This document shows positions 47,271-62,832 of a stretch of DNA of 64,000 bases, in pieces. Position 1 is the stretch's first letter. The number at the start of each line of letters is the position of its first letter. Source of the DNA: Eubacterium sp. (lineage in GTDB: Bacteria > Bacillota > Clostridia > Oscillospirales > Acutalibacteraceae); assembly GCA_017450645.1 (NCBI GenBank), contig JAFSTE010000032.1, forward strand, positions 1 to 64,000, given 5' to 3'. The notes beneath the pieces were generated by a model. That model was not told where the DNA came from. It made no database searches and saw only the letters and a list, made by a program, of their open reading frames with translations. Position numbers and translations under genes: made by a program.

Positions 47271-47924
47271 ATGTTTTTTAACGGCAAAACCGTATTTTTT
47301 AACTCGCAGCCCGTTATAACCGGCAGCGCGGGAGTTGTTGGTAAAAAAGAGGGCGAAGGTCCTCTCGGAAGCGAGTTTGACGCTATTTTTGAAGATACAA
47401 CTATGGGACAGGATTCGTTCGAGCTTGCGGAGTCCGCTATGCTCCACGCTGCGATTATCCGCGCGCTCAGTAACGCAGGCAAAAGCCCGAGCGATGTAAG
47501 CTTTGTTATGACGGGCGACCTGCTTGACCAGTGCGTAGGCTCGTGCTTTGCGCTAAAGGATTTACAGATACCGTTTATCGGAATGTACGGCGCGTGCTCA
47601 ACAATGGCGCTGACGCTCGCAAACTGCGCTATAACCGTTGACGGCGGCGCAAAATGCTGCGTAGCAGGCGCATCAAGCCACTTTTGCTCAAGCGAAAGAC
47701 AGTTTCGCTTCCCGCTTGAATACGGCGGTCAGCGCCCGCCTACGGCGCAATGGACGGTAACAGGCGCGGGCAGCGCGGTTGTGGAGCAGTTAACCGACCA
47801 AAATGCAGAAAATTCAATCAAAATCAAAGCCGTTCAGATTGGCACAATCACCGACCTCGGCATCAAAGACGCCAATAACATGGGCGCCGCCATGGCACCT
47901 GTAAGTGGTAGAATTAGACCATAA
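47271..47924 (+). pseudogene. spoVAD: spoVAD truncated by mobile-element insertion
   Basis: 217 codons beginning FFNGKTVFFNSQPVITGSAGVVGKKEGEGPLG and continuing through MTGDLLDQCVGSCFAL and YGACSTMAL, the marks of SpoVAD, which helps load dipicolinic acid into spores. Intact SpoVAD is about 335-345 aa. Here homology stops after NNMGAAMAP at about residue 210, and the last seven codons (VSGRIRP) belong to foreign AT-rich DNA. The remaining third is not in the window. If the element is stably integrated, spore core maturation would be impaired unless another copy exists. Confidence 0.85.
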
Positions 47925-48703: not shown

Positions 48704-49627
48704 ATGTTAATTGATGATGTTTTAGATTTTGCTGACGAAGAATACAATTCTTTTGAGATTAATTGTGGAGGAACTTGTAATCATCCAAGTATTTGCCCAA
48801 ATTATAATCAAGCTGATTGTTTAAACTGTGAAACATGTTTAGAACAAATACATTTTCCAAAGAGATATAGGGGTAGTACTGTTTGGACAGACTATGATTG
48901 TGAGAAGATGATAAACTATTATATCTGCAAATATCTTCTTAAATACTCTTCTGAAATATTATATGCATTAGAAAATAATAGGTTTATAGATTATCTTGAA
49001 AACTACGATATTTTGTCAATTGGTTGCGGGGCTTGTCCGGATTTGATGGCATTCGAAACATATATTTGCAATCACCGTTTGGATAGCACAATCAATTATA
49101 TAGGAATTGATAAAAATGAATTGTGGAAAGAAGTACAAAATCAGATTATTCAGTACTCTGAAGATGTTCCAGATATTAGTGTTAGCCCGTTTATATATGA
49201 TGATGCTATTAGTTGGCTAAGACATCATATAGTTCGCAATATAGATGTTATTGTACTTCAATACTTTATTTCTCATCTTAATAATACGCGACAGAATAAT
49301 CAGTTTAATGATTTTTGTGACTCTTTAATTGATAATGTGGTAGCTTATAAAAAAGATAATATGCCAATGTTTATCATAATAAATGATGCAAATAGTTGTT
49401 ACAGAGGCAGGGATAGATTTGAAGTATTATTTGATAAGATAAGAGAACACGGTTATAATTGTGATTATAGAAGACGTTATTTTAATTATAGAATTCAACA
49501 TGACGAGCAAAGATATGGTAGAATGTATCCAAACATAAACATTAAATATCCTGTTCCAAGGTTTATATATCAATATAATCCTTGGGAAGTATGTTCAAGT
49601 GCTCAAATGATAATAAAAATTGATTGA
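48704..49627 (+). CDS. Cys-rich SAM-methyltransferase-like protein
   Basis: A 307-residue protein I do not recognise as a named family. The N-terminus has six cysteines (21, 25, 31, 39, 42, 45) in a CGGTC...CPNY...CLNCETC pattern, likely a zinc or iron-sulfur site. The middle (about 100-200) fits a Rossmann methyltransferase: DILSIGCGACPDLMAFE, then YIGIDKNELW, and VIVLQYFISHLNN. Target unknown. AT-rich, directly followed by the DUF1848 gene nine bases on. Together they may modify a macromolecule or nucleotide. Confidence 0.7.
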   Translation: MLIDDVLDFADEEYNSFEINCGGTCNHPSICPNYNQADCLNCETCLEQIHFPKRYRGSTVWTDYDCEKMINYYICKYLLKYSSEILYALENNRFIDYLENYDILSIGCGACPDLMAFETYICNHRLDSTINYIGIDKNELWKEVQNQIIQYSEDVPDISVSPFIYDDAISWLRHHIVRNIDVIVLQYFISHLNNTRQNNQFNDFCDSLIDNVVAYKKDNMPMFIIINDANSCYRGRDRFEVLFDKIREHGYNCDYRRRYFNYRIQHDEQRYGRMYPNINIKYPVPRFIYQYNPWEVCSSAQMIIKID

Positions 49628-49635
49628 GGTATAAA

Positions 49636-50571
49636 ATGATATTAAGTGTAAGTAGAAGAACCGATATACCATCATATTATTCTGAATGGTTTTTTAATAG
49701 ATTAAAAGAAGGATATGTTTGTGTAAGAAATCCTATGAATATTCATAGAATAAGTCGAGTTCCTTTAAATAAAGATATTATAGATGGTATCGTGTTTTGG
49801 ACAAAAAACCCAAAACCGATGTTACAACATCTTGATAAATTAGATGATTATCCTTTTTATTTCCAGTTTACTCTTAACCCCTACAGTACAGATATAGAAA
49901 CAAATTTAGCATCAAAAAAAGACCATATTATACCAACTTTTATAGAATTATCAAAATCTGTAGGAAGAGAAAAAATTGTATGGAGATATGACCCAATAAT
50001 TATTAATGAAAAGTATTCGTTAGAATATCACTATAAATATTTTTCGTCTCTTTGCGATAAATTATCTCCGTATACTGAAAAATGCACAATAAGTTTCATT
50101 GACATATATAGAAATATAGCTAAAAAGCTTATGGTTTTGGGAGTAAAAGAGATATCTCAAGAGTTGCAAATTGAGATTGCAATTAGATTTAGTGAAATTG
50201 CGAAAGGTTATGGATTGTTAATTGATACGTGCTGTGAGAAAATTGATTTATCTCAATATGGGATTAAGCACGCTGCATGCATTGATGGTAGTCGTTTGGA
50301 ACGAATAGGTAACTATAAGCTTAAACTTTCAAAGGACAAAAACCAACGTCAAGAATGTGGATGTTTTGAAAGCATTGATATAGGTGCTTACAATACATGT
50401 AAAAATGGTTGTGTATACTGTTATGCAAATTTTAGCGATACAACTGTAAATAAGAACTTTAACGCACATAATGTTAATTCGCCACTTTTATTTGGCGAAA
50501 TAAAAGAAGACGATGTTATTACTGATAGGATAGTTGAATCAAACAAGATATCACAAATTTCATGGTTGTGA
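49636..50571 (+). CDS. DUF1848-family protein
   Basis: A 311-residue protein starting SVSRRTDIPSYYSEWF, with IVFWTKNPKPML, IVWRYDPII and a Cys-rich C-terminus (CGCFESIDIG, CKNGCVYCYANF). This fits DUF1848, an uncharacterised family with radical-SAM-like features, although the cysteines sit at the C-terminus. The start follows GAGG and overlaps nothing; an upstream TTG would fall in the previous stop. Paired with the Cys-rich methyltransferase. Confidence 0.82.
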   Translation: MILSVSRRTDIPSYYSEWFFNRLKEGYVCVRNPMNIHRISRVPLNKDIIDGIVFWTKNPKPMLQHLDKLDDYPFYFQFTLNPYSTDIETNLASKKDHIIPTFIELSKSVGREKIVWRYDPIIINEKYSLEYHYKYFSSLCDKLSPYTEKCTISFIDIYRNIAKKLMVLGVKEISQELQIEIAIRFSEIAKGYGLLIDTCCEKIDLSQYGIKHAACIDGSRLERIGNYKLKLSKDKNQRQECGCFESIDIGAYNTCKNGCVYCYANFSDTTVNKNFNAHNVNSPLLFGEIKEDDVITDRIVESNKISQISWL

Positions 50572-50783: not shown

Positions 50784-51080
50784 ATGTCAAACGAACAAGA
50801 GATTTTGAAAACTCAAAAAGATATAGCTGAACGAGAGCGAATTAGCAACAAGTTTAAGCTAAAGGGTTATTTCTCCAAAGAAGAAAAAGATGAAGCTATA
50901 GAAAAAGTGCTGGATTTAAGATATTCAGATATGAACGTTATGGCAATTGCTGTTGCAGATAACATTAACGGATATACGACGCCTGAAGCCGCAACGGATG
51001 ATATGGTGTTTAATGAAATCAATAAACAGATTGAGTTCTTAAAAGCAAAACTCGTAAATGAAATTGAAGAAAATCAATAA
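50784..51080 (+). CDS. Small charged helical protein
   Basis: A 98-residue all-helical, highly charged protein of unknown family (TQKDIAERERISNKFKLKGYF, then MVFNEINKQIEFLKAKL). It has a weak GGTGGG ribosome site and is the first gene after promoter-like copy 2. The 210 bases between it and the protease gene hold only short broken frames, so it may be separate from, or a regulator of, the following operon. Confidence 0.65.
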   Translation: MSNEQEILKTQKDIAERERISNKFKLKGYFSKEEKDEAIEKVLDLRYSDMNVMAIAVADNINGYTTPEAATDDMVFNEINKQIEFLKAKLVNEIEENQ

Positions 51081-51290
51081 TTAAACAAAATGAGATTTTT
51101 AAGAATTGCGGGTACGTTTATTCCTTGTTTTCAAGTGAAACAATAGATCTTGTTGAAAACGCTGTTTATGGGTGTTCATAAAAAGTTATTCCTTAATTGT
51201 TTGAAATAAAGTGGCTTGAATGGAAAAGAATGCGCGATCATAGTGTTTATGAACTGTTAAAAAACAATTATACTGAAAAGAGGTTATTCT

Positions 51291-51920
51291 ATGAATACTG
51301 AAATGAGTTTGTCTGAAATGATTACATATTCTACTGTAAAAATAAGCTGTGAGTACGCAGATGGCTCAAAAGGTTCGGGTACAGGTTTTATTATAAATTT
51401 ATGTAATAATGAAGAAGAACAGAAATGTGTTCCTGTAATAATCACTAATAATCATGTCGTTGAAAATGCAAAATCTACTCTTTTTTCGTTCTGCAGAAAA
51501 AATGAAGATGGTAGTCCGAATGACCAAGAAGTTATTAATTTTCAATTAATCGGAGAACATTGGATTAATCACCCTGATTCTTCTGTTGACTTGAGGTGCT
51601 TCCCGATAGGTAGAATCCTTAATGATTTGGATAAGAGAAAACAACCAATTTTCTATATTCCGTTAAACACAAGCATTATTCCAAATAAACAACAAATATC
51701 ATCGCTTGGGGCGTTAGAAGAGCTGGTTATGGTGGGATACCCGATTGGTCTTTCTGATGAATACAACCATAAACCTGTTTTAAGAAAAGGAACTACAGCA
51801 ACACATCTTAAAAACAACTATCAAGGTAAACAAGAATTCTTGATGGATATGGCTTGCTTTCCTGGCTCCAGTGGTTCGCCTGTTTTTATTTATAACGAAG
51901 GTACATACACAACAGGGTAA
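51291..51920 (+). CDS. Trypsin-like serine protease, N-terminal part up to an in-frame stop
   Basis: 209 codons with the chymotrypsin-fold triad: His55 (TNNHVVEN), Asp100 (SVDLRC) and Ser194 (FPGSSGSPVF). The TAA at 51918-51920 is in the same frame as the following 69-codon frame, whose sequence (LVGILYGGP, NLGIAIKAERIL) supplies the last beta strands of the same fold. A single AAA-to-TAA change would explain the break. Without those strands the substrate pocket is incomplete, so this fragment alone is unlikely to be active. No signal peptide: a cytoplasmic protease of the type that occurs in defence operons. Confidence 0.8.
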   Translation: MNTEMSLSEMITYSTVKISCEYADGSKGSGTGFIINLCNNEEEQKCVPVIITNNHVVENAKSTLFSFCRKNEDGSPNDQEVINFQLIGEHWINHPDSSVDLRCFPIGRILNDLDKRKQPIFYIPLNTSIIPNKQQISSLGALEELVMVGYPIGLSDEYNHKPVLRKGTTATHLKNNYQGKQEFLMDMACFPGSSGSPVFIYNEGTYTTG

Positions 51921-51932
51921 GGCGGAATAATA

Positions 51933-52139
51933 ATGGGAAATAGGCTTTATCTAGTTGGAATATTGTATGGCGGTCCTGAATATGCAGCAGATGGGGTGCT
52001 TCGTTTTTCAAATCTTCCTAATATACCAAGACCAGTAATCAGTATTCCGACAAATCTAGGTATTGCAATTAAAGCAGAAAGAATTTTGGAATTTGAAAAA
52101 TTGTTTTTAATACAATCGGAGGAAATCAATAATGAATAA
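51933..52139 (+). CDS. C-terminal part of the split trypsin-like protease
   Basis: 68 codons in frame with the 51.3-kb protease, separated by one TAA and four codons. It could be made by readthrough, or by restart at its ATG (weak GGCGGA upstream), giving a two-piece protease. It could equally be dead. It overlaps the next gene by eight bases. Confidence 0.65.
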   Translation: MGNRLYLVGILYGGPEYAADGVLRFSNLPNIPRPVISIPTNLGIAIKAERILEFEKLFLIQSEEINNE

Positions 52140-54552
52140 AGAACTAATTAAAAGGTATATTGATTCTCAACCTATAAAAGTAGTAACCAAATTGGATTTG
52201 GGTAATGAAAAAATTAAGTATGATAAAATAGTACAATGCCAAAAACGAACTGAAGCCAAGCCCGAAGAATTAAGCAGAGCATTTATTCTGACTAAGCTTG
52301 TAAATGAATTGGGCTATTCTCCTGAAAGAATTGAAATAGAGCATGAGTATACTGCAGGACGTCCTCATACTATAACAAGCAGAATTGATATTGTTGTTAG
52401 GGACTCGAATGGCGACGCTTTCTTATTTATTGAAGTTAAGAGTCCTGAAGAATATGCTAGTATTGATAAAGATAGTGTTATCGAGGAGCAATTGTTCAAG
52501 CTTGCAGGAATGGAACGCACCGAAGGACACGATGTTAGATACTTAGTCCTTTATACAACAAATGATTCATCAGGAACTATTTCAGATGACTGTATTATCA
52601 TAGATAATAAAAAGTTTTCTTCTTATTCCGATTGGGAAGCGTCAAGAGACTATACAAACACTATTCCAGCTCGTTATGGAAAAGCACAGAAAACGTCATA
52701 TGTTAAAGCTTCCGCAAATGACCTTGAAACTGATTTTAGTAATGACATGTTGAATCAGTTGCAATCTGATTTGCACAATGTGCTTTGGGGTGGTGGTGGC
52801 ACTGATGATAATGAAGTGTTTGCTTCCCTTACCAATCTTATTCTTGCTAAAATTCAAGATGAAGACGAGAAAGAAGATGGCGATACATACGATTTTCAGT
52901 CATTAGCATTTGAAAAAGATGGCGATGAAGAATTCGAAACTAACGAACAGCTCTTTGATAGAATCAATGAGCTTTATCGTCGCGCATTAAAATCTAAGCT
53001 GTATATTTTAGATGAAAATGAACTGAACAAATCATATGTAATAGATACTAAAAAATTTTCTTTGTCAAAATTGAAATATGCGGTTCAAAAGTTAGAGGGT
53101 TTGTCTTTTGTAGATGGGAAAAACAGCTTAAGTGGCAAAGACATTCTTGGAGACTTTTTTGAAGGCATTATCAGAAACGGTTTTAAACAGAGCAAAGGAC
53201 AGTTTTTTACACATATTAATATTGTTAAATTTATGCTTTATGCTCTTCAGGCTGATAAACTCGCAATAAAACGAATTAAAGAAGATAAAGAAATACCATA
53301 TATGATTGATCCGTCTGCTGGTAGCGGAACTTTCTTAATCGAATATATGAAATTCATTACAGAAAATATGAAATACCGCAACAGGAATTCTGACGGATAC
53401 AATGCCGATTTAGGAACAGCAAGAGCTGTAAAAGATAAAATATTGTCAGATTGGTTTTATCCAGACCATCGTGAAAACAAGTGGGCACAAACTTATATTT
53501 ACGGTTCAGAAATCAACTTTAATCTCGGAACGGCAACAAAAGTTAACATGATCCTCCATGGTGATGGTTCAACAAATATTTTTGTAAAAGATGGCTTACT
53601 TCCGTTTTCAAAATATGAAAAAGCTACTGGACCTAATGCACTTCAAGGATTTGAAACAGATGATCTATACAGGAATAAAGATAAGTCTTTAGATGTCAAT
53701 GGGCAATTTGATTTAATCTTGACCAATCCTCCGTTTAGTGTAGAACTTGATAACGATACAAAAAAGACATTAAAGAAGGATTTTGTATTTGGTGAAAAGA
53801 AAAATTCTGAAAACCTCTTTATTGAACGTTGGTATCAGCTTTTAAGAGAAAACGGAAGATTGGCAGCTGTACTACCCGAAAGCGTATTTGACACGACTGA
53901 AAATAAGTACATTCGTTTATTCTTATACAAATATTTCAAAATTAAAGCAGTTGTTTCTTTGCCACAATTAGCATTTGAACCATACACCACCACAAAGACG
54001 AGCATTCTATTTGCCCAGAAAAAAACGAAATCCGAAATTGAAGAATGGAATAATGTATGGGACGAAGCAAGCAAAGAATGGGTTTCGCTAAAAACACGAG
54101 TTGAAAACATTATCGCAGTATTTGATAATAAGAAGAACAAAGAAAAACTTCCGTCCATAAAGGATTTATCTGCCGAAGAAGAAAGCAAACTTATTAGAAG
54201 AATGTTAAAAACCTACATTACAGTTCGTGATGATCGCCTATTAACTAACGAACTCATTAGTAAATATCGTGCTGAACTTGAATTGCTTTGTGCCTATGAC
54301 AAAGACACAAAAGATTCATTTGGATATGTTAATACATGGTGGGTTTTTGGTGAAGTATCTGAAAAAATAAACTATGATGTATTTATGGCAGAAGCGGAAA
54401 ACATTGGATATAAAAGATATAAAAAGAATAAAACAGTTACTGATAAGCCAATGCCAAATGAACTGTTTAGAGTTAAAGACAATACTATTTTATTAGATGA
54501 TGGTACAGTTGAAACCATTTTAGATTACATGAGGAGTATTCCGTGGAACTGA
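52132..54552 (+). CDS. Nuclease-adenine methyltransferase fusion (HsdR-N plus HsdM-like)
   Basis: An 806-residue protein. Residues about 40-140 form a PD-(D/E)xK-type domain like the N-terminus of HsdR (Asp86 in SRIDIVVRD, Glu101-Val-Lys103 in FIEVKSPEEY). A helical region with an acidic loop follows. The methyltransferase domain has motif I DPSAGSGTFL from Asp393 and NPPF at 532-535, then a long C-terminal helical part. It keeps cleavage-type and methylation domains in one chain, as in type IIG enzymes, but relies on a separate specificity subunit downstream. ATG overlaps the protease end. Both active sites look intact. Confidence 0.88.
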   Translation: MNKELIKRYIDSQPIKVVTKLDLGNEKIKYDKIVQCQKRTEAKPEELSRAFILTKLVNELGYSPERIEIEHEYTAGRPHTITSRIDIVVRDSNGDAFLFIEVKSPEEYASIDKDSVIEEQLFKLAGMERTEGHDVRYLVLYTTNDSSGTISDDCIIIDNKKFSSYSDWEASRDYTNTIPARYGKAQKTSYVKASANDLETDFSNDMLNQLQSDLHNVLWGGGGTDDNEVFASLTNLILAKIQDEDEKEDGDTYDFQSLAFEKDGDEEFETNEQLFDRINELYRRALKSKLYILDENELNKSYVIDTKKFSLSKLKYAVQKLEGLSFVDGKNSLSGKDILGDFFEGIIRNGFKQSKGQFFTHINIVKFMLYALQADKLAIKRIKEDKEIPYMIDPSAGSGTFLIEYMKFITENMKYRNRNSDGYNADLGTARAVKDKILSDWFYPDHRENKWAQTYIYGSEINFNLGTATKVNMILHGDGSTNIFVKDGLLPFSKYEKATGPNALQGFETDDLYRNKDKSLDVNGQFDLILTNPPFSVELDNDTKKTLKKDFVFGEKKNSENLFIERWYQLLRENGRLAAVLPESVFDTTENKYIRLFLYKYFKIKAVVSLPQLAFEPYTTTKTSILFAQKKTKSEIEEWNNVWDEASKEWVSLKTRVENIIAVFDNKKNKEKLPSIKDLSAEEESKLIRRMLKTYITVRDDRLLTNELISKYRAELELLCAYDKDTKDSFGYVNTWWVFGEVSEKINYDVFMAEAENIGYKRYKKNKTVTDKPMPNELFRVKDNTILLDDGTVETILDYMRSIPWN

Positions 54553-54562
54553 GGTGATATAA

Positions 54563-55984
54563 GTGAAAATTCAAAATATTCAATTAAAATCAATTGGAGA
54601 AGAACGAACACTTCGCTACGATTTTGATTATCATTATTTTTACGGCATATCCTCAAATGAATACTATAAGTTTGAAGAACTATTTGAAATAGCAAAGGAT
54701 GATAACGTAGATTTTGACAACCTTTTTGAAGAGTTTCAATATTGCGAAATAGGAAACACAGACAAAAATGGCGAAATAACCCCAGTAACACTGGATTTTT
54801 CAAAGCGAAATCTATTAGACGAAAACTATTATAAAAAAATTGAGAAAGGGGATATTATTTCCGCTTCAAAAGATGATATATTAATTGCTAAAGTTCGTCC
54901 TAACTTAAAAAAATATATTCGAGTGACGCCTGATATTGAAAGTGTTTATTTTACTTCTGCCTTTCTGCATTTAAAAGCAAAAGCTATTCCTGAAATAATG
55001 TATTATTGTTTTAGAAATCTTTTTTATAATAATTTAATGGCAATTTCTCGTCAAGGTAAAGGATACCCAACATTAAGTGAAACAGATATACGTGAACTAA
55101 AATTTAGCAAAAGCATTATTGACACTCTTATAAATAAAAAAGAAACATTAACAAACCAGATAGTTTGTATTGAATCAGAAATCTCAAGCCTAAAACATCA
55201 GACTCGAACACAGCAAGATATAATAGATAGTTGTTTCGGAAATGAATTTGGATTTGATTATGATAGATTTGAAACACTAAAAGCGGTTAAGATATTCCAT
55301 TCTAATAATTCTGATTTTTCAAACAATCCTGATTTGCGTTTTAGTGCAAAATTCCATAGGGGTGCTGGCAAATTTGTAATGGAACAATTAAATATTGTAA
55401 CTGACAAAAAGATAAAACATTATTTATCTGAACCTATTGTGTTGGGTGCAAGCATTTCTCCCGATAATTATTCCGATGATGGAGACGGCTTTTATATATC
55501 TATGGCAACAATTAAAAGTTGGAGTTTTAATTCGGAAGAAGCAAACACAATATCGGACGAATATGCAGAAGCAAAAAGCGAAAAGACGGTAAGGAAAAAT
55601 GATATTATTTTAGCTCGTTCAGGTGAAGGTACAATAGGAAAAGTAGCATTAATAGATAACGATGATATTAATGGTGTATTTGCTGATTTTACAATGAGAA
55701 TTAGACTTAAAAACTACAATCCCGAATTTGCCTATTATTTTTTTAGAACAAGCTATTTTCAGTATCTTGTTGAGGTGTATAAAAAAGGTCTTGGTAATAA
55801 TACAAATATTTTTCCTGTTGTTATTCAAGAGTTTCCATTAATAGATATTTCGTTAGAAGAACAGCAACGAATTGTTGATGAAATACATTCCGAAATCAAA
55901 AAGCAGGATGAAATAAATGAAAAAATTGTTGAGTTGAGGTCGGAAATAGACAAGATTATTGAAAAAGCCATTGTTGAGGACTAA
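54563..55984 (+). CDS. HsdS-like DNA specificity subunit
   Basis: A 473-residue protein with two target-recognition-like halves. The first spans about 15-190 (KDDILIAKVRPNLKKYIRV, then ISRQGKGYPTLSETDIREL). A coiled-coil spacer follows at about 185-215. The second half (about 240-440) contains VRKNDIILARSGEGTIGKVALI and VEVYKKGLGNNTNIFPVV, ending in a second spacer helix. These are HsdS hallmarks. The start is GTG with GAGGTGAT upstream. It gives the adjacent methyltransferase fusion its target and is distinct in sequence from the 2.3-kb HsdS. Confidence 0.87.
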   Translation: MKIQNIQLKSIGEERTLRYDFDYHYFYGISSNEYYKFEELFEIAKDDNVDFDNLFEEFQYCEIGNTDKNGEITPVTLDFSKRNLLDENYYKKIEKGDIISASKDDILIAKVRPNLKKYIRVTPDIESVYFTSAFLHLKAKAIPEIMYYCFRNLFYNNLMAISRQGKGYPTLSETDIRELKFSKSIIDTLINKKETLTNQIVCIESEISSLKHQTRTQQDIIDSCFGNEFGFDYDRFETLKAVKIFHSNNSDFSNNPDLRFSAKFHRGAGKFVMEQLNIVTDKKIKHYLSEPIVLGASISPDNYSDDGDGFYISMATIKSWSFNSEEANTISDEYAEAKSEKTVRKNDIILARSGEGTIGKVALIDNDDINGVFADFTMRIRLKNYNPEFAYYFFRTSYFQYLVEVYKKGLGNNTNIFPVVIQEFPLIDISLEEQQRIVDEIHSEIKKQDEINEKIVELRSEIDKIIEKAIVED

Positions 55985-55988
55985 AGAT

Positions 55989-57068
55989 ATGAACAAAGCA
56001 TTATTAGAAAAAGCAATAACCGAGTTTTTAAAAAAGAAAAAGACAAATTCGGCTTATTATGAAGATAATTGGGCTGAACGTAAAGAGCGCAAAACTTTCT
56101 ATCAATCTTTCACAAAAGAAAAACTACTTGCAATGACTGAAGATGAGTTCTTTGAGTACATAAGCAATCTTTGGTCTATGCTCATTTGGGGAAACAAAAA
56201 ATATGTGGTTGACAAGTTAATCGCAGATAACGGGTTCATTAATATCAAAAAGCAATTAGCAGAATTGTTGTTTAGTCATGCTGATATTGAAAAACGCTGG
56301 GATTCTTTCCTGAAAACAGTAAAAGGAGTAGGTCCGGCAACTATTAGTGAACTTCTTACATATGTAAATCCGAATGAATATGTAATATTTAACAAAACAA
56401 CGATTCTTTGCTTTGGATATCTCGGTATCTCTGATATGCCAAAATATAATTATCAGTACACTGGTAAGAAGTACAAGGAAGTTTGCAGTATTGCAAAAGA
56501 GATTGCTTTAGAATTGAAGAATGTCGGTGCAGATGATTACGATTTGCTTGCAGTTGATTATTTCCTTTGGGATGAAATACTTCCCATTACAGAGAAAAAT
56601 CCCAGCGGTAACACTGAACCCGCTGCTGAAAAAGCAGTTGTATCAAATAAAGATTCAAAATCATTGCACGATGAGATTAAAGAAAAACTTGTTGCAATCG
56701 GCGAGCTTCTCGGTTTCGATAGCCGTTCTGAAGTCAAAATTGCAACTGGCGCTATTGTTGATGCAATTTGGGAAGCAAAAATCGGCAATATGGGTAAAGC
56801 AATTTATGTTTTTGAAGTGCAGTCAAAAGGCTCAATAGACAGCTTGATTCTTAACTTGAAGAAAGCACAAAGCAACGCAGCTGTACAAGCTGTTGTTGCG
56901 GTTGCGGATGAAGAGCAATTAGCAAAAATCATCAGAGAAAGCGAAGGTGTTATTGATTCCAAAACCTTACGCACTTGGGATTCAGATGATGTTTTGGCAG
57001 TATATGATTCGCTTGCACGAGCTCACGAATCAATCAACAAGCTTGCTTTAGTTCCTGATAGTTTTTGA
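55989..57068 (+). CDS. Helix-hairpin-helix protein with nuclease-like C-terminus
   Basis: A 359-residue protein not assigned to a known family. The N-terminal half is helical with an HhH DNA-binding motif VKGVGPATISELL (about 111-123) followed by VNPNEYVIFNKTT, a pattern seen in proteins that handle branched or nicked DNA. The C-terminal third (about 232-359) reads FDSRSEVKIATGAIVDAIWEAK ... IYVFEVQSKG, which resembles a PD-(D/E)xK fold with Gln in place of Lys. The ATG follows GAGGA; a longer frame overlapping the specificity gene is less likely. Confidence 0.7.
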   Translation: MNKALLEKAITEFLKKKKTNSAYYEDNWAERKERKTFYQSFTKEKLLAMTEDEFFEYISNLWSMLIWGNKKYVVDKLIADNGFINIKKQLAELLFSHADIEKRWDSFLKTVKGVGPATISELLTYVNPNEYVIFNKTTILCFGYLGISDMPKYNYQYTGKKYKEVCSIAKEIALELKNVGADDYDLLAVDYFLWDEILPITEKNPSGNTEPAAEKAVVSNKDSKSLHDEIKEKLVAIGELLGFDSRSEVKIATGAIVDAIWEAKIGNMGKAIYVFEVQSKGSIDSLILNLKKAQSNAAVQAVVAVADEEQLAKIIRESEGVIDSKTLRTWDSDDVLAVYDSLARAHESINKLALVPDSF

Positions 57069-57081
57069 TACGGAGACACAT

Positions 57082-58002
57082 ATGAATTCTGATATTATTA
57101 AAGGCTTATTAGCAAAACAAGAAAATGAAATCATTGATATAAAAGAAAAGTATTATTCAAAAGATAAAAAATATGATCTTATTAAGGACATTGTATCGTT
57201 TGCTAATAATGTAAAGCCTATTGATAAATTCATTGTATTTGGTGTTAAGGATACTACTTGGAACGTTTGCGGTATAGACATTACAACTCTTCCTGATATA
57301 TCTGAAATAAACGATTTACTTCGTAAATATGTTGAGCCATTTATAAATGTTGAAATAGGTAGCCTAGAGTATGAAAATGTTACAATTGGTTATATTAGAA
57401 TACCATTTAAAGAATTAGATAGACCGTATCTTATTTGTAAAGAATATAATAAGAATAACAAAGCTTTATTGCGCGAGGGCGATATATATATTAGAAAAAG
57501 CGGAACTAATTTTATTGCTGATAGAAAAGACCTAGATGATATTTATAACAATAAAGGTTTGTTAGAAATTATCCCTTATAAAAATATTGTCAATGTTTAT
57601 AATGCAAGCTTTAATAATTGTAGATGCTTGACCGGAAGTATAAGGAGTACCATTAGCAACACTATGCCAATTACTGCTAACATTGACAGCATAAAAATTA
57701 TAATTAATAGTGGAAATAATGCAATTGCTCCAGAAGTTCTATTTATCGATGATGAAAAAAGAGTATTTGGAAACAAACCAGAATCAATCTCACAGAAACC
57801 AATAGAATTAAGCACGGGAAGTAGTATCCAAAGGACTTTGTATTTTTCATTATCTGAAAATGCAGTAAAGAATTTATTAATTAAGAAACAAGCAAAGCAA
57901 AATTTCACGATTTCATACAAATATACAGATGTGAACAAAAAAGAATATGAGAGCGAAGTTTTTAATGTCGTTCTTGAATTTTCAGATGATATTTTGAAAT
58001 AA
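57082..58002 (+). CDS. AlbA_2/Schlafen-type domain protein
   Basis: A 306-residue protein. Residues 10-155 match the AlbA_2 (Schlafen AAA_4) domain: ENEIIDIKEKYYSKDKKYDLIKDIVSFAN, IVFGVKD, FKELDRPYLICKEY and EGDIYIRKSGTNF. The domain binds nucleic acid and occurs in many defence-linked proteins. The C-terminal half is a beta-rich domain without known motifs. Preceded by GGAGA, 13 bases after the HhH gene. Confidence 0.82.
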   Translation: MNSDIIKGLLAKQENEIIDIKEKYYSKDKKYDLIKDIVSFANNVKPIDKFIVFGVKDTTWNVCGIDITTLPDISEINDLLRKYVEPFINVEIGSLEYENVTIGYIRIPFKELDRPYLICKEYNKNNKALLREGDIYIRKSGTNFIADRKDLDDIYNNKGLLEIIPYKNIVNVYNASFNNCRCLTGSIRSTISNTMPITANIDSIKIIINSGNNAIAPEVLFIDDEKRVFGNKPESISQKPIELSTGSSIQRTLYFSLSENAVKNLLIKKQAKQNFTISYKYTDVNKKEYESEVFNVVLEFSDDILK

Positions 58003-58029
58003 ACACTGTTTTTAAAGGAGAAACGGGAT

Positions 58030-58905
58030 ATGAATTATTCACCGTTAAGATATCCTGGAGGAAAAAGTAAAATTGCTCCATTTGTTTCACTTGTTATAAA
58101 AAAATCAAATATTGATAAATGCATTTACATTGAACCTTTTGCTGGTGGCGCAGGAGTGGCACTATCTCTTTTATTTGATGGCGTGGTTGATAATATCGTG
58201 ATAAACGATTATGACAAAGCCATTTACTCTATGTGGAGAGCGATATTAACTCAAACAAATGAATTTATTGAGCTCATTATTAATACCCCTTTGTCGATCG
58301 ATGAATGGAAAAAGCAAAAAAGCATTTATTTGAACGATAATAGTCATTATTCTTTGGAGTTGGGATTTGCGACATTTTATCTCAACAGAACAAATCGGTC
58401 GGGTATTCTTTCTGCCGGTCCTATTGGAGGCTATTCACAAGAAGGCAAGTATAAAATTGATGCAAGATTTAATCGTGATGTGTTAATTGAAAAAGTGCGA
58501 AAAATAGCAAAATATAAAACACATATAAAATTATATAATAAAGAGATTGAGAGCTTTATTATTCACTATTTACCAAAATACCAAAACAGTGCTTTTATAT
58601 ATTTTGATCCACCATATTATAATAAAGGGAAAGAGTTGTATAAGAATTTTTTAGTTCATGATGATCATGTGCGTATTTCTAACCTTATAAAGAATATTGA
58701 GTGTTCATGGATGGTTACATATGATGATGTTAATGAAATACGAGAATTATACAATGAATATATATGTAAACGATTTGACTTAGCATATAGTTTGGCAAAT
58801 TCAGGAAAGAAAACGGAAATTATGCTTTTATGCAAGGACAAATTGTGGCCTAATGATGAAGAATTAAAAACTAACAAAATAAGAATCAATATTAGAGAGG
58901 TATAG
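58030..58905 (+). CDS. Dam-type N6-adenine DNA methyltransferase
   Basis: A 291-residue D12-class methyltransferase: PLRYPGGKSKIAPFV at the start, motif I EPFAGGAGVA at about 35-44, FYLNRTNRSG, and the catalytic DPPYY from Asp193. Such enzymes methylate GATC or another short site without a partner. In this island it would mark self DNA independently of the HsdS-guided enzyme, a second layer of modification. Good ribosome site AAAGGAG. Confidence 0.92.
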   Translation: MNYSPLRYPGGKSKIAPFVSLVIKKSNIDKCIYIEPFAGGAGVALSLLFDGVVDNIVINDYDKAIYSMWRAILTQTNEFIELIINTPLSIDEWKKQKSIYLNDNSHYSLELGFATFYLNRTNRSGILSAGPIGGYSQEGKYKIDARFNRDVLIEKVRKIAKYKTHIKLYNKEIESFIIHYLPKYQNSAFIYFDPPYYNKGKELYKNFLVHDDHVRISNLIKNIECSWMVTYDDVNEIRELYNEYICKRFDLAYSLANSGKKTEIMLLCKDKLWPNDEELKTNKIRINIREV

Positions 58906-58906
58906 T

Positions 58907-59359
58907 ATGTCTAATTCAATAGATAATCTGCTTAGTAATGATCCGCTTTTAAAACTTATTCAAGAAGAAAATTTTATAGGTTGGATTTATTCCATTGACT
59001 ATGATTCCGCTTTAGTAGTAACTAATGATTTGTGGAAATCGAAAGTTAATGGTGTTCCTCACAATAGTTTTTTAGTTGCGTCTTCAATTAATCCAAATAA
59101 CTATAGCAGTGCTACACAAATGGATAAAGAGGTTATATTATTGAGAGTAGTTGGAACTTGCAAACTACCCCAAGACGATGATATGATTCGCACTAAGATT
59201 GATAATTATCAAAATCAAACAGGTATTTATTTAAGCGATGAATCAAAAGACTTTGACCCAATTACTAAAAACAGACTTCAATTTGGCGGATTGAAGTGCC
59301 GAGTTTTAGGTACTTTCTTTATGAAGAATAATGAACTAAATATGGGTAGTGATATTTAG
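58907..59359 (+). CDS. HerA N-terminal HAS-barrel part, ending at an in-frame TAG
   Basis: 150 codons that form a beta-rich domain like the HAS barrel found at the N-terminus of HerA ATPases (FIGWIYSIDYDSALVVTND, PHNSFLVASSI, RLQFGGLKCRVLGTFF). The TAG stop at 59357 is in the same frame as the HerA motor frame starting 15 bases later, so the two are one interrupted gene. Other genes in the window end in TAG normally, so reassignment is unlikely. Confidence 0.78.
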   Translation: MSNSIDNLLSNDPLLKLIQEENFIGWIYSIDYDSALVVTNDLWKSKVNGVPHNSFLVASSINPNNYSSATQMDKEVILLRVVGTCKLPQDDDMIRTKIDNYQNQTGIYLSDESKDFDPITKNRLQFGGLKCRVLGTFFMKNNELNMGSDI

Positions 59360-59374
59360 TCATTTTCAGTATCA

Positions 59375-60934
59375 ATGCGTATGGGGGTTTACATGCCAAA
59401 AGGAGAAGCTCTGTCAGAAATTGTTAATTATGTTGATCCCATAAGAAAAACTAGATTTAAAGAAGAGCTAAATGCTTTAGGTATTAAAAAGGAAATTAAA
59501 CCGTTTGAAATAGGAACGGTAAGATATACATCAACAGATAGATTGCACCGCGCTAATGAAAATGACAAGATTTCTTTTTATATACAACCATCTGATTTTT
59601 TAGCAAGAAGAACAGCGGTATTGGGTATGACTAGAACTGGCAAATCCAATATGATTAAACAGACCATTTCCGTAGTAAAAGATATAGCTGATTCTTGTGA
59701 TTTGCCTATAGGACAACTGGTTTTTGATATTAATGGAGAATATGCTAATGCAAATAAGCAAGACAATGGCTCAATATCTGATATTTATGCTGATGGCTGT
59801 GAAAGGTATAGGATGATAAAAACAGATGGTTTTAATCATTTGTTAAACAATTTTTATACGGAGATTAACGAAGGACTAGCTATATTAGGTGACTTAATAA
59901 GAGAAAACAAAAAGGATGGTTCAGCTGATGTTGACACATTTCTTGGTATGTCATTAGATAAGCCTGATGCAAGCGAAGAACCAGGAGAATACAAACGTTG
60001 GCAAGTAAAAACTGCTATTTATAAGACATTATTGAAACGTGCAGGCTATGAATATAGTGGGAAGTTTTCAGTTAAGTTTGAGGCAAACAAAAAAGTTCGA
60101 GATGCTGTTGATAAATTATTAATACAAGAGGATAGTGGTTATGTATCTATGGATCCGAAGAACTCTTTTGATTACAATCAAGCATTAAAATGGTTTGATG
60201 CTGCTAGAAAAGCTAATAAAAACAAATCAGATACAGGCAAACTGAAATCTAGTAGTGGTTCAAACTGGCTCGACGAAGAGTGTGTTGCAATGTTAAACTT
60301 GCTGGTAGGTAGAAACAATAATGATTCATATATAAGGGGATTCAGAACGATTGAGTGTGGTAGACCTTATCATACGCCCGCCCGAAGTCAAGATGTTTAT
60401 AAAGAGATATATAAGCATTTGACTGATGGCAAAATAGTAATTTTAGATTTGTCTGTTGGACAAGCTCAGCTGAGAGAACGAATTGGCAAAAAAATAGCAA
60501 AATATGTTTTTGATTCTTCAATGAACTGTTTCACACAAGGTAATAATCCCAATAATATAGTTATATATATAGAAGAAGCGCATAATCTTATTGGAAAAGG
60601 CATGGATTTATCAGATACTTGGCCAAGACTAGCAAAAGAAGGAGCAAAGTATAAAATAGCTCTTGTATATGCTACTCAGGAAGTATCATCTGTTCATCCC
60701 AACATTCTCGCAAATACAGAAAACTGGTTTATTTCACATTTGAATAGTGAAAAAGAAATTTCAGAGCTTGCTAAATTTTATGATTTTGCCGATTTTAAGC
60801 AATCGCTATTGCGTTCACAGGATGTTGGTTTTGCTAGGGTGAAAACATTGTCGAGTCCATTTGTGGTCCCAATACAGATTAATAAATTCGATCCTGAAGC
60901 TATACTATCAAAGAAAGGGGTTAATAATGTCTGA
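59375..60934 (+). CDS. herA: HerA-like hexameric DNA-translocating ATPase, motor part
   Basis: 519 codons with the HerA/FtsK-type P-loop GMTRTGKS at 84-91, the strand LVFDINGEY after it, Walker B IYIEEAHN (Glu400-Glu401), and a C-terminal sensor region KIALVYATQEVSS. HerA pumps DNA and activates NurA. This frame lacks the barrel that normally docks NurA, which is in the separate frame upstream. The first ATG has no ribosome site; the ATG at 59393 has GGGGG five bases before it. It overlaps nurA by eight bases. Confidence 0.88.
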   Translation: MRMGVYMPKGEALSEIVNYVDPIRKTRFKEELNALGIKKEIKPFEIGTVRYTSTDRLHRANENDKISFYIQPSDFLARRTAVLGMTRTGKSNMIKQTISVVKDIADSCDLPIGQLVFDINGEYANANKQDNGSISDIYADGCERYRMIKTDGFNHLLNNFYTEINEGLAILGDLIRENKKDGSADVDTFLGMSLDKPDASEEPGEYKRWQVKTAIYKTLLKRAGYEYSGKFSVKFEANKKVRDAVDKLLIQEDSGYVSMDPKNSFDYNQALKWFDAARKANKNKSDTGKLKSSSGSNWLDEECVAMLNLLVGRNNNDSYIRGFRTIECGRPYHTPARSQDVYKEIYKHLTDGKIVILDLSVGQAQLRERIGKKIAKYVFDSSMNCFTQGNNPNNIVIYIEEAHNLIGKGMDLSDTWPRLAKEGAKYKIALVYATQEVSSVHPNILANTENWFISHLNSEKEISELAKFYDFADFKQSLLRSQDVGFARVKTLSSPFVVPIQINKFDPEAILSKKGVNNV

Positions 60935-62303
60935 TATATTTGTGGACAGAACATCACACATAGATATTGTTGACAATCCAGATGTAAAATCTTTTTTAGA
61001 AAAATGTGAATATATAAGAGAGCCTAGCGAAGACGAACTCAATTCTATATTGAATTATTTTATATCTGTTCCAAAGCCAGAATACGAATTGCCACAAAAC
61101 ATTATTTCTATTGATGGGAGCAATTACGAAGCAAGTGTTAGAGAAGAACTACCATTCACAAGAATTGGCTTTGTTAAAATTAGTAACTTGTTGATGAATC
61201 GAAAGAATTTTAATAAGTTATCTAACCACCATTTTGTGGATCCTTTTGCTGTTGCGAAAATGAGCCAAAGTAACGATTCGTTAACATTTGCTTTTCCAAG
61301 CACAAATATTTGTTTTGAGGGCGAAAAAAATGTTCGTGACAGTTTTAGAAAAGCGTTAGATGACTCTTTGTATAAAAAGAGGTTTAGAGAAGATGATGCA
61401 TCCACTAGTTTGAGAACAACATTATTTCATTTGGCCGCATTAAAAACAGATAATTCGGACAAAAGCATTGATAAATTTATTTTATATAAGTGCCCTTCGT
61501 GCGAACAAAAGGATATCGAAATTTGGGATGTCCCGGAAACTCAGTATTGTCCACACTGTGGCGAAAAGGTCTATCCGTCAGATTGTTTGAGGATTTGGGA
61601 AGATGTAGGAGATTGGCATTCTAATCAAGCTGCATTAACAAGATTCACAAATGCTATAACTAATTTGTTAGTAGTACACTATATAAGATACATTAAAGAA
61701 AATAATACAGACTCATATTTAAATACATTAGATGATTTGTGTTTTGTATTAAATGGACCTTTAGCTATATTTGGAAATCCAGCGTGGCTGCATGGTTGTA
61801 TATTGAAATATCTATACGATATTAACAAAGAGTTGATTAGCCATAATAAGAAACCAATTATAGTAATGGGTATTATTAAATCCGGTGCGATTTGTGATTA
61901 TTTTAAAATGATAGAAAATAGCGTGCCGAAGAATTCTATCTTTTCGGTTTCAGATGATTTCAGAGACAAGTACATATATTTTGACAGAGAACCGTCATCA
62001 ACAACATTTGGAGCTGAAACATATTATGGACAGGATTTTTTATTAAAGACAAACGATAAAGTATTTGTGTTTAATGCCTTACTTCCATTTAGGGATAAAC
62101 ATAACACAACTGTTTTTAAAAAAGAAAAATCGAATATTCTTAACTATAATAATATAGGTACTTATGTAAAATTAATAGAAGAATTTGAATGTGATTTACA
62201 TAGTTCAACAATAGTTCCTATTGCTTTAGCAGAGAAGTATTCCGCTATTAGTTTGGAACCTGGTGGTAGAGTACTTGATTTATTAGCAAAAAGCTCCGTA
62301 TGA
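60927..62303 (+). CDS. nurA: NurA-type nuclease with zinc ribbon
   Basis: A 458-residue protein with the NurA motif IISIDGSNYEA (catalytic Asp63) and a C-terminal second acidic region near GIIKSGAICDYF. Between them is an insertion holding a four-Cys zinc ribbon (Cys189, 192, 208, 211: CPSC and CPHC), not part of standard NurA. NurA degrades DNA 5' to 3' when driven by HerA. The ATG overlaps the herA end, the usual coupling. A terminator follows after 36 bases. Confidence 0.85.
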   Translation: MSDIFVDRTSHIDIVDNPDVKSFLEKCEYIREPSEDELNSILNYFISVPKPEYELPQNIISIDGSNYEASVREELPFTRIGFVKISNLLMNRKNFNKLSNHHFVDPFAVAKMSQSNDSLTFAFPSTNICFEGEKNVRDSFRKALDDSLYKKRFREDDASTSLRTTLFHLAALKTDNSDKSIDKFILYKCPSCEQKDIEIWDVPETQYCPHCGEKVYPSDCLRIWEDVGDWHSNQAALTRFTNAITNLLVVHYIRYIKENNTDSYLNTLDDLCFVLNGPLAIFGNPAWLHGCILKYLYDINKELISHNKKPIIVMGIIKSGAICDYFKMIENSVPKNSIFSVSDDFRDKYIYFDREPSSTTFGAETYYGQDFLLKTNDKVFVFNALLPFRDKHNTTVFKKEKSNILNYNNIGTYVKLIEEFECDLHSSTIVPIALAEKYSAISLEPGGRVLDLLAKSSV

Positions 62304-62339: not shown

Positions 62340-62385
62340 AAATCCAGCACAATGCCATTTTTGACACTATGCTGGATTTCTTTGT
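62340..62385 (+). terminator. Terminator of the HerA-NurA operon
   Basis: AAATCCAGCA and TGCTGGATTT form a 10-bp perfect stem with a long loop, followed by CTTTGTTTT. Confidence 0.85.
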
Positions 62386-62579: not shown

Positions 62580-62832
62580 AATTGTTGCTGATTTTACAGT
62601 ATAAAATATAACTAAATACTATTAAAATGAAGGACGATTTTTGTAAAAAAGTTGTCCTTTATTTGCTTTTTTCAACATATTTCACGCTTTTTGCTTGCTA
62701 TAATCCCTTGTAGAAACAAAGTAAAAAACTAGGCATAAATAAATATATATTTATCTATATAGATATTTATATAAATACTAACCGAAAAAGAGTAATAGTA
62801 TTTAATATACGTATAGTAGGAGGAATGAAAAG

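Follow-up and report, generated by a model that had tools for sequence, protein, structure and literature searches.

Near the 3′ end of the DNA analysed here (the window, positions 1 to 64,000 of contig JAFSTE010000032.1 from Eubacterium sp.) lies a compact run of genes that encodes a trypsin-like protease, a nuclease-like domain fused to an adenine methylase (HSDR_N-methylase), an HsdS-like specificity subunit, an HhH protein, an AlbA_2 protein, a D12-class (Dam-type) methylase, a HerA translocase and a NurA-family nuclease. Such a locus raises the question of whether its genes act as one defence system, as the initial annotation proposed for a composite set of nine, or whether several systems have come to lie side by side. 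We distinguish three modules, namely a lone protease of the PDC-S45 type (module 1), the HSDR_N-methylase with HsdS and the HhH protein (module 2), and AlbA_2, Dam, HerA and NurA (module 3). The last of these (57082-62303) is probably a widespread methylation-marked restriction system in which HerA-NurA would destroy unmarked DNA, and the region as a whole seems best regarded as a defence island in which at least three separately occurring cassettes share one integrated element.

Separate occurrence of the modules

We scanned 84,980 species genomes with a HerA alignment and obtained 468 relatives confirmed by tblastn; the best 80 of these were examined with flanks of up to 10 kb per locus, and in 65 of them the flank upstream of HerA measured 3 kb or more. 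The window protease, HsdS and HhH protein had no tblastn match in any of the 80 loci, 57 of which hold the 7.6 kb or more upstream of HerA at which the protease would lie. Distant matches to the HSDR_N-methylase (22–25%) were present in three, farther downstream. Four strong relatives of the protease (in genomes G315, G390, G297 and G321) have no other island gene around them; strong protease relatives adjoin integrases or other genes, and one has a TnpV-like stretch. In G384, a 79% relative of the HSDR_N-methylase is followed by an HsdS-like open reading frame (ORF; recognised by eye) with no protease before it, and the contig ends there. In G397 (locus L102), the gene for the HhH protein comes after an HSDR_N-methylase (Pfam) other than that of the window and an HsdS-like ORF (by eye). 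Its neighbours differ again on a Monoglobus plasmid and on two plasmids from archaea, and one of these archaeal plasmids carries an N-6 methylase at a distance of about 2.5 kb. Genes of the modules thus keep other company elsewhere, and the island is best seen as a stack of no fewer than three cassettes.

Under the single-system reading, HsdS-guided and Dam methylation would mark self DNA, the HhH and AlbA_2 proteins would sense, the protease would regulate and HerA-NurA would degrade. The tight co-directional spacing does cross the module borders, and genes resembling type I or III restriction-modification (RM) genes recur near the HerA-NurA cassette in other genomes; with labels assigned by phmmer from a small number of query proteins, at least one such gene is present in 12 of the 65 loci that remain when 15 loci of a Verrucomicrobia type are set apart and counted separately. 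Sets resembling M, S and R genes together occur in L016, L022 and L040; the 15 Verrucomicrobia loci have no RM-like gene. Against this stand the 80 HerA loci described above and the occurrence of each module without the others; a check for recurrence in unrelated genomes did not find the nine-gene set together elsewhere, and a single system is accordingly very improbable. A tightly packed, co-directional defence island may be misread as one system.

Linkage of the methylase to HerA and NurA

Linkage was counted in the 65 loci using hidden Markov models built from the window proteins and their matches in the same loci. HerA is accompanied by a D12 methylase within 4 kb in 60 of the 65 loci and by NurA within 2.5 kb in 63, with both present in 58; the two loci without NurA end at a contig end. 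Beyond 4 kb from HerA, the 540 kb of DNA in these loci held a single D12 match, a background of 0.015 per 8 kb. Most methylases are upstream of HerA on the same strand (52 loci, compared with four downstream on the same strand and four reversed), and 47 of these 52 overlap the HerA ORF or stop within 100 bases of it. Judged by record titles, the hosts include Clostridia, Bacilli, Chloroflexi, cyanobacteria, Bacteroidota, Spirochaetes, Proteobacteria and archaea. Distance matrices for 50 loci were correlated for HerA-NurA (r=0.88), Dam-HerA (0.51) and Dam-NurA (0.46), with 0 of 2000 permutations reaching the observed value in each case; by these correlations the methylase is the looser partner. 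Five loci lack D12. In L069 an N6_N4 methylase is found at a distance of about 2.7 kb, L028 and L040 adjoin type III and type I sets, respectively, and L041 starts at a contig end; the fifth, L036, is taken up below. AlbA_2 adjoins the core in 11 of the 65 loci, all within one clade of the HerA tree that has 17 tips, four of which lack it; AlbA_2 is an extra gene in one branch of the HerA-NurA family.

Because a scan with HerA could favour one subtype, NurA was used as bait on 148 relatives and on 398 genomes of the phylum. This recovered ten loci besides the window, nine of them with HerA, and an adjoining DNA methylase was present in all nine, of class D12 in L164, L165, L166 and L169 and of class N6_N4_Mtase in L107, L108, L167, L168 and L170. 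One of the nine had already come up in the HerA scan, L164 and L016 being a single record, which leaves eight new loci; in L167, both HerA and the methylase have short ORFs. In the tenth locus (L171), NurA is broken around a transposase-like ORF and HerA is absent. Since all nine loci have a methylase, four of one class and five of the other, the marking enzyme is swappable.

The cassette is also carried by mobile elements. Relatives of HerA and NurA were found in the same five plasmid records, of which four were examined (Halorarius, Deferribacter, Calothrix and Tolypothrix; the fifth is a Nostoc plasmid); an N6_N4 methylase adjoins HerA-NurA on the Halorarius and Deferribacter plasmids. Two Vibrio temperate phages (L011, L012) share the layout integrase-HerA-NurA-Dam, with the D12 methylase reversed, and Dam-HerA-NurA is present on two of three IMG/VR contigs. 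HerA is frameshifted in L011 and open in the other phage, and the HerA-NurA DNA of these phages had no match in E. coli genomes. On the Deferribacter plasmid (L154 5141-8939), an IS200/IS605 element that includes TnpB has inserted into HerA and split it.

Two variants of the locus were seen along the way. The 15 Verrucomicrobia-type loci (L044-L056, L059 and L089) form one clade in which HerA is kept while NurA and the D12 methylase are absent, and this HerA has possibly been domesticated. In L016, L023, L028, L031, L035, L038 and L043, genes for a UvrD-like helicase and a PD-(D/E)XK protein come after NurA (Pfam for L031 only), and several of these loci continue with type I- or III-like RM genes. 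In the HerA tree they do not make up a single clade, and it is possible that they represent an extended version of the cassette.

A proposed methylation-marked nuclease and its alternatives

The closest solved relative of the window HerA by sequence is TdpA (7e-31 by profile, 1.8e-21 by single sequence). Tdp (TdpABC), reportedly described by An et al. in Nat Chem Biol in 2025, is said to pair a HerA-like motor with a nuclease that is held back by phosphorothioate on self DNA, the modification reportedly blocking TdpA loading or translocation. Both Tdp and module 3 place a HerA-type translocase and a nuclease beside a DNA-modifying enzyme; they differ in that the mark is phosphorothioate in Tdp and would be methylation (D12 or N6_N4) in module 3, where the nuclease is of the NurA family. 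No window gene is labelled TdpC, the phosphorothioate-making component (by Pfam and NCBIfam labels alone, no TdpC model or sequence having been compared), and what the window offers for DNA modification is a methylase gene. A NurA profile search with E up to 10 returned no chain named TdpB, in a structure set that may not include TdpB.

By analogy, a DNA methylase, D12 here and N6_N4 elsewhere, would mark self DNA, and a HerA hexamer with NurA would thread along double-stranded DNA and degrade what lacks the mark, which would probably block HerA loading or translocation. AlbA_2 may be a regulator that senses DNA or nucleotides. That a methylase is nearly always close by, and yet comes from either of two families, is what would be expected if the methyl mark matters to HerA-NurA. 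The initial annotation had likewise proposed that Dam methylation marks self and that HerA-NurA destroys unmarked DNA; near-obligate methylase linkage and kinship to TdpA fit that proposal, although both the restriction activity and the protection by methylation are what we infer. We are evenly divided on a broader proposition, taken as a whole: that these loci are an unnamed bacterial and archaeal RM class in which a processive HerA-NurA reads DNA methylation, with unrelated methylases (D12 or N6_N4) plugged into the same motor, and that this class is the methylation counterpart of phosphorothioate-gated Tdp on temperate phages, plasmids and integrative elements.

Several observations weigh against a methylation-marked nuclease. 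Exceptions to the linkage exist: L036 has no methylase near HerA, the cyanobacterial plasmids of Calothrix and Tolypothrix (L009, L153) carry HerA-NurA without an adjoining methylase, and IMG/VR contig L007 has HerA-NurA with no methylase in 9.4 kb upstream, its NurA running off the contig. The permutation test for the distance correlations ignores species relatedness. The DGS motif, present in the window NurA, is found in 42 of 50 NurA proteins, and comparison of NurA with solved structures gave no convincing match, the best hit of the profile search being a designed TIM barrel that we take as chance.

One alternative is that HerA-NurA is an end-directed shredder that disposes of DNA after a neighbouring RM system has cleaved it; the methylase would then guard against some other enzyme or regulate expression, and would not gate HerA-NurA. 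Archaeal HerA-NurA does act exonucleolytically (PMC12977600), and the RM-like genes near 12 of 65 loci and the UvrD and PD-(D/E)XK genes after NurA in seven point in the same direction. In the other 53 loci, however, no such RM gene is present (within flanks of 10 kb at most, and less on shorter contigs), and the methylase is the usual companion, its class swapped while HerA-NurA stays; we therefore consider this explanation unlikely.

A second alternative is an infection-triggered abortive system akin to SIR2-HerA and DUF4297-HerA, in which a phage signal would assemble or activate the HerA complex, NurA would attack all DNA and the methylase would act as a brake. Other solved HerA proteins (8j4u, 9c1m, 8wiv, 8xau and 8ziq) also match the window HerA, several of them presumably from systems of this kind, and AlbA_2 could serve as the sensor. 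TdpA is nevertheless a far better match (7e-31 versus 1.5e-16 or weaker), and AlbA_2 is confined to the 11 loci noted above, which makes this scenario more doubtful still than the shredder. SIR2-HerA and DUF4297-HerA share with module 3 a defence HerA that has a partner enzyme; in module 3 the partners are NurA and a DNA methylase, and its HerA is nearer to TdpA than to other solved HerA proteins.

A methylation-marked HerA-NurA system also needs to be set against systems already named. The archaeal and Deinococcus HerA-NurA nuclease shares two protein families with module 3; in Thermococcus, HerA-NurA degrades both strands of double-stranded DNA, and an antiviral role has been suggested by the authors (PMC12977600). 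The module 3 pair is found on mobile elements with methylases, whereas the accessible part of that article contains no word beginning with "methyl-". The D12 methylase matches the PADLOC model for PD-Lambda-5_B at 1.3e-115 (Vassallo et al. 2022, PMC9519451), yet its partner PD-Lambda-5_A is not among the PADLOC matches listed. At a threshold of 0.01, two NurA proteins of the module 3 family had no PADLOC match and another had a weak one (0.0013); none of the ten window proteins scanned against NCBIfam reached the cut-off of a model. The available portions of two papers by Rakesh and colleagues on HerA/FtsK capture and BRC systems (PMC10853773, PMC12839542) hold no word beginning with NurA. No model or name for a system of methylase, HerA and NurA was found in PADLOC, NCBIfam or the mostly open-access literature, and one may exist in print; the cassette looks like an undescribed restriction-modification system. 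If it is one, a motor so far associated chiefly with DNA repair in archaea would be the restriction arm of a large self/non-self class (468 relatives), and the scatter of HerA-NurA over phages and plasmids would be explained. It would also raise the question of how a methyl mark stops a translocating nuclease, and how that nuclease tolerates marks made by unrelated methylases.

Genes and setting of the island

The families named in the initial annotation, the HhH label apart, are confirmed by Pfam and PADLOC (Table 1); its description of co-directional, AT-rich and tightly spaced genes also holds. The long ORFs from 50.8 to 62.3 kb are on the forward strand, and the GC content per kb is 29–36% (50-62 kb) compared with 38–52% at 12-48 kb. 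From the protease to NurA, neighbouring genes are separated by 1–27 bases or overlap, the overlaps being protease tail with methylase, HsdS with HhH, and HerA with NurA (start taken as 60927). Promoter-like sites show no excess (84, against 78.7 in shuffles); terminator-like sites number 10 against 4.9, and 18-pair hairpins lie 3′ of NurA at 62340-62379 and 62625-62664.

Table 1. Coordinates (window positions) and family assignments of the island genes.
Gene	Module	Position	Strand	Remarks
98-aa ORF		50784..51080	+	No convincing family; 210 bases 5′ of protease; membership of the set doubtful
Trypsin-like protease	1	51291..52139	+	ORFs 51291-51920 and 51933-52139, one in-frame stop between; Trypsin_2 2e-9 (Pfam); PDC-S45 2.2e-81 for first piece (PADLOC)
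HSDR_N nuclease-like domain + N6 adenine methylase, 806 aa	2	52132..54552	+	PF13588 (HSDR_N_2), PF02384 (N6_Mtase)
HsdS-like specificity subunit	2	54563..55984	+	PF01420 Methylase_S 4e-10
HhH protein with conserved C-terminal domain	2	55959..57068	+	Relatives at 79-81%; archaeal plasmid relatives 31-34%
AlbA_2/Schlafen-domain protein	3	57082..58002	+	PF04326 SLFN_AlbA_2 6e-14; PDC-S50 3e-20 (PADLOC)
D12-class (Dam-type) adenine methylase	3	58030..58905	+	PF02086 MethyltransfD12 1e-20; PD-Lambda-5_B (PADLOC); motifs FAGG, DPPY
HerA translocase	3	58907..60934	+	N-terminal domain 58907-59359, in-frame stop, ATPase part 59375-60934; DUF87/HerA 1e-8 (Pfam), HerA (PADLOC); Walker A GMTRTGKS and EEAH
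NurA-family nuclease	3	60927..62303	+	PF09376 6e-6, 26.4 bits (cut-off 21); four conserved cysteines, zinc-ribbon-like

Two entries of the initial gene list required revision. That the 150-aa ORF before HerA is a separate gene is ruled out by its relatives, in which one continuous gene spans the region (HerA ORFs of 676 aa in L005, 653 aa in L006 and 713 aa in L007); in an alignment at 82% identity, the window HerA has a single stop, in the same frame, between the N-terminal ORF and the ATPase part. The protease frame likewise contains a stop, which cuts off the C-terminal ~70 residues, and the family match spans both pieces; no stop is present in the four next-best matches to this family, which are the strong relatives named above. 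HerA is interrupted in four of 72 relatives tested (L011, L037, L067 and L079); a further candidate, L043, was rejected, since the stop flagged there is the natural gene end. The stops in the window may be real or assembly errors. Because HerA and the protease are interrupted, restriction is probably off in this genome while the methylase gene is open, as are the frames of the HSDR_N-methylase, HsdS, HhH protein, AlbA_2 and NurA.

Module 2 was compared with known RM types. HSDR_N_2, N6_Mtase and Methylase_S are all present, with a putative catalytic ExK motif by eye, so that a type IIG or IIB enzyme, with nuclease and methylase in a single protein and S apart, may be considered. No HsdR ORF lies next to the methylase and HsdS in the window. 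A 49% Aerococcus relative of the methylase, with the same N-terminal stretch, sits beside S genes and an 891-aa HsdR-like ORF (by eye), and for this reason the sequences favour type I as the likely ancestry of module 2.

Membership of the island genes in larger methylation-based systems was also considered. The window methylase, HsdS and HerA resemble mad2, mad5 and mad8 of MADS (Maestri et al. 2024) in PADLOC, whereas mad1, 3, 4, 6 and 7 are absent from the matches listed (for two proteins, the best 25 of 35 and the best 25 of 49 families). The HSDR_N-methylase matches MAD2 at 4.8e-48 with 163.9 bits, far below the NCBIfam cut-off of 720, and we rejected membership in MADS. BREX and DISARM were set aside as well: as had been noted initially, PglZ, BrxC, BrxL, DrmA and DrmB are lacking, none being among the same listed PADLOC matches.

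The HhH label is weakly backed (an OGG-like match of 1.6e-4 in one homologue, under the cut-off of that family), and the best match of the protein to solved structures was 0.017. Its C-terminal domain has a D...ExQ pattern by eye and is possibly PD-(D/E)XK-like. HhH and methylase queries against viral contigs gave pattern matches, none of which was confirmed. The last ~85–125 residues of the HhH protein also occur alone at 85–91% identity (L103 855-1232, L104 428-739, L106 4184-4432), which resembles a recombination scar; in L104 this lone tail lies beside SIR2-like and HerA-like ORFs (by eye). Ribonuclease III-like genes lie near the HhH gene in L101 (6748-7950) and L102 (2087-3202), confirmed by Pfam in the former only.

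The window belongs to a 70,266-base contig (C25) of a 2.08 Mb genome in 32 contigs that is 87% complete. The island was initially placed on a mobile element, and the surrounding sequence bears this out: the sporulation gene spoVAD (window 47271-47924) is split between C25:47286-47903 (family positions 3-204) and C21:3701-4105 of the same genome (positions 196-329), the ten-base word ATGGCACCTG is common to both junctions, and a serine-recombinase-like ORF recognised by eye lies past the window at C25:64102-65784. The element that splits spoVAD is possibly excised during sporulation. Further defence-associated genes lie on either side of the island. Next to the recombinase-like ORF, and likewise past the window, C25 carries an AbiEi/AbiEii pair and a PDC-S31 protein (L149 1903-3412 and 4586-5488). 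Upstream of the island, at 48704-50571, is an overlapping pair of genes for a C3a159-like methyltransferase and RTasDUF1848 (PADLOC label DRT).

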